Shown here piece after piece: positions 6,377 through 18,435 of a stretch of 20,229 nt of DNA (position 1 is its first letter; each line of letters starts with the position of its first letter). Both the position numbers and the translations under genes were made by a program. The notes under the pieces are model-generated. The model did no database searches. It worked only from the letters and a program-made list of their open reading frames with translations, and was not told the DNA's origin. Origin of the DNA: a virus; the IMG/VR virus record IMGVR_UViG_3300035158_000616, positions 1 to 20,229 of that record. One strand, 5' to 3'.

Positions 6377-9300
6377 TTAATATTGATCCGCACCATACTC
6401 CAAGAAATGGTGCAGTTGTTGCGACGGATAATCCTCTTTTCTCCGGCCAACACGAATTTGAGCACGCTTCTTCAGTTCAGACTTAATCTCATCCTTAATT
6501 CGTTTATTATTAGCGATTAAAGCTTCACGTGCCGCACGACGAACATCAGAAACGGTGTTCTTAATAACTCGAATTTTTGCTTCACGATTAAGTTGTTTAT
6601 ACTGGTCCGCCTGTATGATATCCGTTAACCATTCTTGGAGAGGCACTTGAGAAATGAGCTCATTGAGTTTGTCATATTCTTTGGGTTCCAGCTTTTCACG
6701 GACATGCTCTAGCTGAACGGATTCGCCTGGTGCTGGAATATTTGCACCAAGTCGCATCAATTCCTGGGCAATCGGATCTTTTGTTTCTTCACGTGTCGTG
6801 AAAACGCCCAGGGCGGGCGCTGGCCAAGCTTCATCTCGCTTGATGACAGTGCCATAAATATTGTGTCGTCTTGGATACAGCGCCTTCTTGTTGAACTTGC
6901 TTACAATAACGTCACTGGCATCCGTGGTTCGACGAACGACATCGTCGGATAACTCTTGAATGTGCCTCAATGCCGTCGATCCTGGAATTAGTTTGTCGAG
7001 CTGTTGGTTAAACCAGTACTGTACATTTTTCCGTTCTGATTGCATGACCATCTCAAAGAGACTGTGAGCGGACTGCATAAAGGTCTTATTCAGCACCGGA
7101 TCTGTCATAGCGTGTAACCAGGGACTCACAAGGTCCGCCATATCCTGCTCGTCCTCATCGGTGGCATATTGAATCGACATTTCGGCAGCACGGGCGATAT
7201 CTGCTATAGCGCCAAGAAGCATTGCAGCCGGGTCACCACGCTTATAAGACACCCATTTATCGCCAAGCTTAACCGAATATTCCTGAACACCATAGTTATC
7301 CCAAGTCTCTTCCATGCCGACCGGAGTCCTGCCGGTAAGATAACCAAGCTCATAGAGAGCAAGCGCACCGCCCATCATGGCAGAACCCTGCACCATACCA
7401 GCTATAGCTTCCTACCTGTCACGCCCCCCGTTGCGCAATTGATTCTTGACTCGGCCTTCAACCAATGCGGCAAGCGGTGTTTGGCGACCGGCATACTTGG
7501 TGAGATTGACCACAACCTTGTAGAAAGGCACACCCAGGATTTTAACTGTCTGTCCTAATGCGTTTGCGTTAAGCGCTTCATTCAAAGCGCCAGAGGCTTT
7601 ACCCAGGTCATCCGTAAAAGTGACTTCCCTGGCATTTCCCATCGCCTTGTAATGAAGATTCCTGGATGGTTTATTGGTCATGAACTGAATGAAATCTTCC
7701 AGGTCTTTTCCGCTTAAATTCCGGTCAATGCCCTCACGTGCTGCCTGGGCATGGAGTTCGGAAAAATAGCCGATGTTCTTCATAAACTCGTCACCGGCGG
7801 TTAACCCATGAAATGGCAGAAAAGGCATCTTAATCAGAGTCCGAAGCGGCAAGCGAACCCCTATTTTATTCATGTTCAACCTATCAAGTTGCCTAATCGT
7901 CCACTTATCAAGCTTTTCATAGACGTTACCGACTTGCCCCTCGGCTTTTGCCCCAGAGTCAATCTGCAGTTCCCCGGTAAACAATGCCTTCCAGACACGA
8001 CCGGCTTCATCATCCATTTCCCAAGCTTTTTTCATGCCGCCCATGATGACTTTCGGGTTGTAAAAATTCTTCTTTGTGACACCGGGAAGTCGCATGGCAT
8101 CAATCAGCCCCATCCGCATCCCATGTACATATGCGGATGCTTCCTTCATGACTTCCTTGTTTCCAGTCATCGCCGAATGTATTTTCAAACCAACAAACCT
8201 TTTGATGGTGTTATTAGTCATTGCGACACTATTGCCAAGCATGTTGGTAATATGAGTGGCCGGATTCCAGAGAAGGTTGGCCTGGACCAGCTCCAAGACC
8301 CCTTCCAAATAAGAGTTCTTTCCGATACTTCTGGCAACATGGAACTTGGCCGGGGTTGTCTTGGCTTGTCGAAAGCTTTCAATAGCTCTCTGGACTCTTT
8401 GCCTGGAGTTATTAGCCAGATCCTGGAGGTCCATATCATCCATCGAGTCAAGATCAAACCGGCCTTTGAATTTAGTCCATGGTTGATTATAGATATCAAG
8501 GGTACGCCCGATTTCACTGCGCACACCAAAAACAATGGACTCCAGCTCCTGAAGCTGTTTCATGTGCTCCAGCACTCGAAGTTCATCTTTAAAGCTCATA
8601 TTGGCCGGTTCTGAAACCATCTTGCCAATCGCATCAGCATACGTGACAAAAAACTTATTAAGGGACCGGACCCTTGCTGGTAGGTTCTTGACGTCCTTGA
8701 AGAGTCTGCGCATGGAATCCATAGTTTCGTCGGTGCCTCTGCCAAGATTGTGGGCTAACCTTTGACCGGCCTGTTTCTCAGTCGTTTCCCTGGAGACATG
8801 CCTACCAGCATCAGCGCTTCGCATTTCAAACATGTCATCAAGCCGGTCGCTTCGGAATATTTTAGCCATTCTTTGAACAGAGTCCTCGACTTCCATTGCA
8901 TCGATAACCTTGTTGTAACCCAGGTCGTCCGGCAAATCTTCGGCATGTCGATGTCTGGCAATTTTTATTGCCGTCTGCGTCAAGTCCTCCTCAGTCGCTT
9001 TTGGGGTCACTCTTCTTTCTTCAACAGGTTTCTTCAGTACTGCCTCATCAGCTTCTCTCACTGCCGCTTCAGCTTCCTGCTGCCCCACCGACTTCTCAGG
9101 TTCTGCATTCGTTTCGGTTCTCCGGCCAATATGACCTTTGCGGGGTTCTTCAGGTCGGCGAAGAGGATCTGTGTCGGCATGTTCAAGTTTACTGGAGACT
9201 TTCTTATCAAATTCCTTGACAACTTGGGATTTTTTGCCGCCTACTGCTCGCCAAAGCTGACCTTTAGCCAACTTAAATCCCGATATCAATGTATCAAAAG

Positions 9301-10171
9301 CGACCCCGGTGACTGCACCCTCCAAAGTTTGCTTTAATCTCTCAACTGCTGCCGGATTATTGGGGTCAGTTTTCATAAAGTCAATGATGACATTCTGTGT
9401 GTCAGGATCAAACTCAGATATGGCGTCTGCCAGCTTAGGGGCATACGGATCGAATGCTGCATAATCCGCAATAGCCCCCTTGATTGTGTCCTCACCCAAG
9501 CGTGCCATAAACTTTGCCGTTCGTGGTAGCTTGGTTGCCATATTCTTCATAATACCGCTGGAAAGAATTTTAGATGCGATTTGACCGCCTTTAGTCACCT
9601 TGGATACCCTAGAAAACGGCACCAGGAATTGTGAGAAAGTCTTGGTAATATCTCCAGGCAAGGAATAAGTGGATGTGATATCTTTGTTTGCTTCGTATAT
9701 GGCATTGGCATGTTTTTCCATGAAATCGGGAACGGATTCTGTAAGCTCCTCAGGATCTACAGTCATGGCACCGACCTGCTCGTCACTTAATAATCCAGCA
9801 GACTCGGCCATTTTAATCATTCCGGTCTGAGGGTTCATCCACTGACTGATTTCGCCAATCGCCTCAAAAGTTTCGATAGCGCCTTTTTCAAACCCTCCGA
9901 TGACACCTTTGCCGACATCCTTCAAATAATAGGACACGGGACTCTCCTGCCTGTCGACGTAAGCGTCAACTTGGTCATTGTCAAGTAAGCCCGCACGATA
10001 AGCAACATCAACGGAATATGGGTCCATACCCATAAGACCGTGATGCTTAAGTTGCTTTCGGGCCGTATACAAGTCTACTTGCTCTCTAGGAATCTGTCCT
10101 TTCTGATACATCTGGTCGATTTGACCAGGGGAATATTTCATCAAGCTCTTGTTTGTATTAGCCTCGGCCAT
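6377..10171 (-). CDS. gp16-like internal virion (DNA ejection) protein, read through one in-frame TAG
   Basis: One reading frame of 1265 codons (T7 gp16 is 1318 aa, from memory) interrupted only by TAG at 7414-7412. The part after the TAG (EAIAGMVQGSAMMGGALALY, then PYS-like GVQEYSVKLGDKWVSYKRGDP) continues the C-terminal half typical of large ejection proteins, so I read it as one protein, with TAG as probable Gln. Segments such as LVQANLLWNPATHITNMLGN are characteristic of podophage core proteins. No transglycosylase motif (catalytic Glu plus SYGLMQI) is seen at the N-terminus, unlike T7 gp16. Several hydrophobic helices suit a membrane-crossing ejection channel. Taken as broken, it would be two ORFs, 10171-7412 and 7396-6377, the second lacking a Shine-Dalgarno. 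Confidence 0.85.
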
Positions 10172-17203: not shown

Positions 17204-17264
17204 AGTTCATTCCTCCTTCTCTTTATTGGTGGGATTTTCTTGGTTTTCTTTTGGTGGGTTTGAA

Positions 17265-17278
17265 GACATGTACATGTC
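17265..17278 (+). repeat. GACATGTACATGTC palindrome upstream of the capsid gene
   Basis: Perfect family B core with flanks GAA and GAGTTG, one base different from the flanks at 124 and 2989. It points against the genes, 62 bp before the capsid ATG. Confidence 0.92.
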
Positions 17279-17300
17279 GAGTTGCCTACTTCTTCAAGTC

Positions 17301-17375
17301 GACACGCATTGCACCTTCCGCGGCACGTACGTGCCTTCCGTGACATATACGTGTCTTCCGTGACATATACATGTC
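17301..17375 (-). repeat. Array of variant palindromes with 20-bp period and covarying arms
   Basis: GGCACGTACGTGCC (17322-17335, a perfect palindrome), GACATATACGTGTC (17342-17355) and GACATATACATGTC (17362-17375) share TTCCG-type linkers. A worn copy (GACACGCATTGCACC, 17301-17315) precedes them. The second base varies G or A and its partner varies C or T in step. Confidence 0.9.
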
Positions 17376-17438
17376 TTCCGACTTCAAGGTATCCACAGCT
17401 ATGATTTCCTCAGGAATCACCATTGGGCTTGAGTCAAA

Positions 17439-17452
17439 GACATGTAAATGTT
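17439..17452 (+). repeat. Degenerate family B palindrome
   Basis: GACATGTAAATGTT, two substitutions from GACATGTACATGTC. A weak copy. Confidence 0.55.
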
Positions 17453-17484
17453 GACTGGATTTATGTGTGTGGTGTAAGGTTGAA

Positions 17485-17517
17485 GGAATGAATATGCCAA
17501 GAAGGTATGTATATGCC
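17485..17517 (+). repeat. Two tandem family A palindromes downstream of the scaffold stop
   Basis: GGAATGAATATGCC (17485-17498) and GGTATGTATATGCC (17504-17517), each with one arm mismatch, have a 19-bp period and the linker AAGAA. They point against the genes. Confidence 0.88.
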
Positions 17518-17547
17518 AACTTGATTTGTTACACTGGTTCAAGCACA

Positions 17548-18435
17548 TTAGAAGGCAGTGGTTCGTTTGATTTTCTCTTCCACCTACTGTCGAAATGCAG
17601 GGTCATTTTGATATTCCGGTTTCTGCATATCCCTGACCATTTCAGCACGGGATTGATAGCCTTGCGGCCCGCTTGTGGATTTTCTGTCGCCTTCAAGCAG
17701 GTTATTATTTCCGGAGTTCATTGGCCCATTCTCCAACTGATAAGCTTGGGTGACAGCTCTGACTGCCATTTTAGCTTTGGCAACGTCGCCGGATGTGACG
17801 GCGTCATTAAACTCTCGGACCTCTTGCTTAGAAAGGTTTTCAGAACCCCATTCAACGAGTTTCTGATAATCTTCCTGGCTACCGGCGATTTCAAAAAGCG
17901 TATTTTGATACTGCTCAACCTGATACTGAACCCCAGAAAGATAAGTATCGACTAAACTCTATGGAAAAATATCACAGAGCTAGTTATAACTCTCTTCAGT
18001 AAGAGTACCATTTTCGACTAGCTCCTGGTTAAACTGCTCAACACTCAGGCCATTCTGTTCCAGGATCTCGTCAACCTGGGTCTTGGCCCGTTCCTGGGTT
18101 TCTTCACTCTCAGTAGACTGTTCATTGGGTTCATCGGTTTCTTCCTGCTGTCGTTCCTCCTGGTTGGATTCATCAGACTCGCTTGTCTCCTGCTGACTTG
18201 TGTCCAACTGAAAACCTCCGGTGGACTCCAACTGTTTATATATTTCACTGAGGTCACCCTTCTGCTTCAGCAGTTCCAGTGTTCCTTTCTCAAGTTCCTC
18301 TTCCGTTTTATACTTACCGGCTAATAGATCTTCTTCATGCAGAGCGGCACTCGTCGGGTTCTGACGTGTTGACATATTCATGCCTTCAAAGCTCTCTTCA
18401 TTGCCGCCCATCGTGACACTATGATTATCACCCAT
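17548..18435 (-). CDS. Scaffold (capsid assembly) protein, T7 gp9-like, with three in-frame TAG codons
   Basis: About 295 residues if TAG is sense (T7 gp9 is 307). It directs prohead assembly and then leaves. TAGs lie at 17982-17980, 17961-17959 and 17586-17584, all in one frame that ends at TAA 17550-17548. The N-terminal half is acidic (long Glu/Ser/Gln tract) with LAGKYKTEEELEKG. The C-terminal half matches T7 gp9: LVDTYLSGVQYQVEQY against FIDSYIRGQEALVEQY, and SRAEMVRDMQKPEYQNDPAF against DRSEMIKAMSDPRYRTDANY. After the last TAG the frame reads VEEKIKRTTAF, parallel to T7 QVEQKVIDSNF, with TAG on the Gln. The start could be 18435 or the repeat-embedded ATG at 18375, which has GAAGG 7 nt upstream. 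Confidence 0.88.
18371..18384 (-). repeat. Family A/B hybrid palindrome at the scaffold N-terminus
   Basis: GACATATTCATGCC, one arm from each family, followed by TTC. It lies in frame near the start of the scaffold gene and encodes EGMNMS; it contains an alternative start ATG at 18375 with GAAGG spaced 7 nt before it. Confidence 0.75.

Follow-up and report, generated by a model that had tools for sequence, protein, structure and literature searches.

In-frame TAG codons in the ejection protein and scaffold genes of a T7-like phage fragment and their probable decoding as sense codons

Background

Recoding of stop codons in phages is best known from the gut crAss-like, megaphage and jumbo lineages, which make heavy use of TAG. 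Decoding of TAG as glutamine has been demonstrated by proteomics in two crAss-like phages using code 15 (PMC9523058), and in phAss-1 in-frame TAG codons were found in 41 ORFs (28%) together with three suppressor tRNA genes (PMC10607447). Stop codon reassignment is reported to occur sporadically across several families, and a suppressor tRNA with the CUA anticodon is present in about half of the code 15 phages (PMC11210395). Outside these phages UAG is read as a lysine derivative in the pyrrolysine systems of bacteria and archaea, where its use is rare. Searching the literature by title and abstract we found no study of Autographiviridae with alternative codes.

In this work we have analyzed a virus record of 20,229 bases, referred to in its whole length as the window, which is a fragment rather than a complete genome. 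It resembles code 15 phages such as the crAss-like phages and phAss-1 in carrying in-frame TAG codons in late structural genes whose homologues are uninterrupted; as in code 15 members these codons lie inside essential genes, here those for a gp16-like ejection protein and the capsid scaffold. It differs from phAss-1 in that TAG interrupts only two of 15 genes, in a T7-like podovirus, and no suppressor tRNA is seen within the 20-kb fragment.

Results and discussion

Organization of the window

All 15 genes of the window are located on the minus strand and follow the T7-type late-region order: portal, scaffold, major capsid protein (MCP), gp11, gp12, gp13, gp14, a protein in the gp15 position, the gp16-like protein, a small unnamed protein, a TerS-like protein, two fibre-region genes, TerL and a transglycosylase. 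The gp16-like gene thus sits between the gp15-position and fibre genes, as a T7-type late region requires. The record is best explained as late-region DNA of a T7-like (Autographiviridae-type) podovirus in which UAG is decoded as an amino acid in the gp16-like and scaffold genes, and to this whole reading we assign a probability of about 0.75. The fragment does not include the early half of the genome, whose total size would be ~40 kb judging from relatives.

T7 gp16 itself carries a transglycosylase domain. The window encodes an SLT transglycosylase in a separate gene (415-936), downstream of TerL, and its gp16-like protein shows no Pfam domain, so the transglycosylase function may have been relocated from the gp16-like protein into a gene of its own.

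The gp16-like gene and its single TAG

The gene for the gp16-like internal virion (ejection) protein occupies positions 6377..10171 of the minus strand and comprises 1264 codons when read through one TAG. Its frame begins with ATG at 10171, preceded by AAGGAG, ends with TAA at 6377 and is uninterrupted by any frameshift; the sole stop inside it is the TAG at codon 920 (7412..7414, minus strand), where the junction reads GGRDR-TAG-EAIAGMVQGSAMM. The claim of an earlier note that the frame passes unshifted across the TAG is therefore exact to the base. Codon 920 falls in a conserved stretch that reads GGxxAxAxAKMxTG in the homologues.

The read-through protein matches the internal virion protein family phrog_6651 (E 4.9e-33), and in tblastn searches it matched 'internal virion protein D' of HTVC011P, ProddE and others. 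Searched separately, both halves match this same family, and in order: the upstream part (7415..10171, minus strand; 919 aa if the TAG terminates) aligns with family positions 139-468 (E 4e-14) and the downstream part (6377..7411, minus strand; 344 codons) with positions 1026-1361 (E 5e-20). In the downstream part the in-frame codon bias is 0.213, as high as in the upstream part, and the other frames give values around zero or lower. In a ten-sequence alignment all nine homologues cross codon 920 without a gap, and comparison with homologous loci by tblastn showed that 26 of 26 other loci aligned over this codon are free of stops there, among them Desulfovibrio phage ProddE and Pelagibacter phage HTVC011P. 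The genes of these two phages resemble the gp16-like gene in gene order, length and conserved columns but lack the internal stop, and identity to them is only ~20%. The gene was proposed in the earlier note to be a single one interrupted by TAG only, and the 26 unbroken loci, the family matches on both sides and the persisting codon bias bear this out. A search by sequence for a relative with a solved structure found none, and a first scan for relatives with the gp16-like protein as query gave no match.

The same data bear on the possibility that the protein is truly split, with translation stopping at the TAG and re-initiating to give two ejection proteins, 919 and 339 residues long. The first in-frame start downstream of the TAG is ATG 7396, 15 nt away, and the Met that it encodes aligns with a column in which several homologues carry M. 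It was claimed earlier that the downstream part has no Shine-Dalgarno sequence; as a statement of absence this does not hold, because an SD-like GGTAGGAAG lies ~12 nt upstream of ATG 7396, with an energy (-5.5 kcal/mol) similar to that of some accepted genes of the window. What stands of the claim is that this motif is weak and badly spaced: the spacing is long, and the energy lies at the 25th percentile of internal starts, roughly one in four of which is preceded by an equally good motif. A split has a precedent in Methylophilales phage MEP301 (L030, 2512-5611), which makes its gp16-like protein from two overlapping genes, with the break well upstream of the point that corresponds to codon 920. 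We looked for a family of homologues naturally divided at codon 920, and none of the 26 other loci is split there; nor was the downstream part found as a stand-alone gene in any record of the phage collection. Re-initiation at ATG 7396, which would account for gp16 alone and leave the TAGs of the scaffold gene unexplained, is unlikely.

The scaffold gene and its three TAGs

The capsid scaffold (T7 gp9-like) gene, located at 17548..18435 on the minus strand, comprises 295 codons when read through three TAGs, at codons 152 (17980..17982), 159 (17959..17961) and 284 (17584..17586), all on the minus strand. It contains no other stops and so provides, as had been proposed, a second independent gene with interruption by TAG only. 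The product matches the head assembly family phrog_1052 (E 9e-47), with 947 phage records matched, and in the alignment the homologues pass all three TAG positions without a stop. The stretch between TAGs 159 and 284 alone matches phrog_1052 (E 1.6e-30), and codon bias continues downstream, at 0.29 in frame and about zero or below in the other frames. No in-frame ATG, GTG or TTG occurs within 40 codons after TAGs 152 and 159, so that re-initiation could not produce the conserved C-terminal half; this is the main ground on which we favour decoded TAGs rather than a gp16 in two pieces.

Between TAGs 152 and 159 (17959-17982) the gene has one residue fewer than most of the aligned homologues and reads LCDIFP where they have an LEKAGIP-like sequence. 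This unusual short stretch could reflect locally relaxed constraint.

Frequency of internal stops

The 15 genes of the window contain four internal stops, all TAG and confined to two genes (one in the gp16-like gene, three in the scaffold gene), and neither a frameshift nor an in-frame TAA or TGA. Across 293,009 aligned codons the homologous genes have three internal stops, a number that stayed at three when the locus set was enlarged to 354,067 aligned codons. At the former rate 0.064 stops are expected in the 6,247 codons of the window against the four observed, with a Poisson probability of ~7e-7 for four stops and ~0.002 for two interrupted genes. When the single-base paths to a stop are weighted, 43% of them lead to TAG, giving a probability of 0.035 that all four would be TAG by mutational opportunity alone; the TAG-only pattern is thus modest evidence, and the number of stops together with the otherwise intact reading is firmer evidence than this pattern. 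Among the out-of-frame stop trinucleotides TAG is the rarest (85/813). None of the 15 genes ends in TAG, which had been considered informative; 79 of 764 homologues (~10%) do so, and with this baseline a count of zero in 15 would arise in roughly one case out of five, so that nothing can be drawn from it.

These counts weigh directly on the view that the genome is defective or chimeric and its TAGs arose by nonsense mutation or through errors of assembly, with truncated, nonfunctional proteins in this copy as the result. Public contigs do carry single internal stops: one TAG lies inside gp12 of L100 and one TAA inside the portal gene of each of L108 and L123, and these are likely to be mutations or errors. 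It also fits this view that queries of IMG/VR with TerL, portal, gp12 and MCP yielded no relative with TAG at these positions, and that one residue is deleted between scaffold TAGs 152 and 159. Against it stand the uniformity of the four stops and the 15 genes otherwise free of interruption, where only 0.06 stops would be expected, and we consider mutation or error an improbable source of the four TAGs.

Decoding of UAG

With both frames unbroken, both flanks of the TAGs conserved, TAG as the only interruption and the homologues uninterrupted, the two genes are best explained by TAG being decoded as an amino acid; from these observations we infer suppression itself, as well as the source of the tRNA and the residue inserted. 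The phage would tolerate UAG as a sense codon within late structural genes, and a charged tRNA with the CUA anticodon, encoded either by the host or in the part of the phage genome that the fragment lacks, would insert an amino acid at UAG, so that the gp16-like ejection protein of 1264 residues and the scaffold of 295 residues could be produced whole. Competition by release factor 1 would probably leave some truncated product alongside, and the sparseness of UAG (4 in 6,247 codons) suggests that recoding is recent or inefficient. No tRNA, and hence no suppressor with the CUA anticodon, was found in the 20-kb fragment, in which the early genes are missing. It also speaks against decoding that no relative shares the trait and that the nearest one (L122, with an MCP 62% identical) terminates its scaffold gene with TAG.

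Programmed readthrough of the stop codon was also considered and rejected. The 3' contexts of the four TAGs differ, with no common motif, and no downstream RNA structure was detected, the z-scores for folding of the downstream 100 bases being -1.66, -0.93, -1.64 and +0.63. Differing contexts and ordinary folds make a general UAG-reading tRNA likelier than a programmed site.

The inserted residue

At codon 920 of the gp16-like gene the 27 homologues have mostly A (13) or S (6), followed by D (2), N (2), Y, V, L and K, with Q in 0/27; the nearest relatives by gp16 have Y (L043) and V (L051). The column of scaffold codon 152 is of K/A/S type (K 47, A 46, S 24, E 14, Q 4 of 163), that of codon 159 is K/R in ~91% (K 94, R 54, Q 1 of 163) and that of codon 284 is K/E/D/Q (K 35, E 34, D 22, Q 18 of 168). 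Unlike in code 15, none of these columns is Gln-conserved, and by this comparison the phage is best regarded as a variant rather than a code-15 member.

A residue classifier for which 3,565 sense positions of the phage served as training data (48% cross-validated accuracy) gave summed log odds at the four TAGs of 3.7 for K, 0.95 for R and 0.7 for Q, with lower values for the others. Lysine is thereby preferred over glutamine by 2.9 log units, or ~19:1, on four sites only. Where a column exceeds 85% K/R, the residue is K or R in 60 of 62 cases and Q in 2. The rarity of Q in the four columns and the preference of the classifier for K disfavour glutamine, the residue implicit in an assignment to code 15. 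K, R or a K-like residue would suit the four sites better, a lean that rests on four sites and leaves glutamine possible. That a T7-like phage decodes UAG as lysine or pyrrolysine rather than glutamine in its scaffold and ejection proteins is a proposal that we make tentatively; a lysine or pyrrolysine amber assignment in a phage is absent from the literature searched here.

Pyrrolysine, inserted by PylRS and tRNA-Pyl of a Pyl-using anaerobic host such as a sulphate reducer, would be a special case of UAG decoding. The preference for Lys-like columns is in keeping with it, gp16 places the Desulfovibrio phage ProddE among the closest named phages, and Pyl-using marine Deltaproteobacteria are known (PMC8318568). 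Other window genes, however, are nearer to phages of quite different hosts, and known pyrrolysine use is in methylamine methyltransferases, whereas the genes concerned here encode virion proteins; we give this special case a slim chance.

Should UAG decoding be true, a small T7-like phage with only four TAGs would exemplify recoding at a stage that is early or host-supplied, and at the K/R-conserved site the identity of the inserted residue can be tested directly. Such sparse cases may be overlooked by tools that seek large gains in coding density.

Palindromic repeats

Tandem palindromic units of 19-20 bp (GGCATATACATGCC, GACATGTACATGTC) occupy non-coding gaps of the window, at 162-449, 961-1005, 1101-1200, 2919-2982, 17257-17519 and 18362-18398. 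Considered as a clue to the host, the 19-bp repeats were matched by none of the viral or genome contigs, plasmids or phages searched. One palindrome pair provides the start of TerL (MYMP...), and another falls within the scaffold reading frame, where it is translated as EGMNMS.
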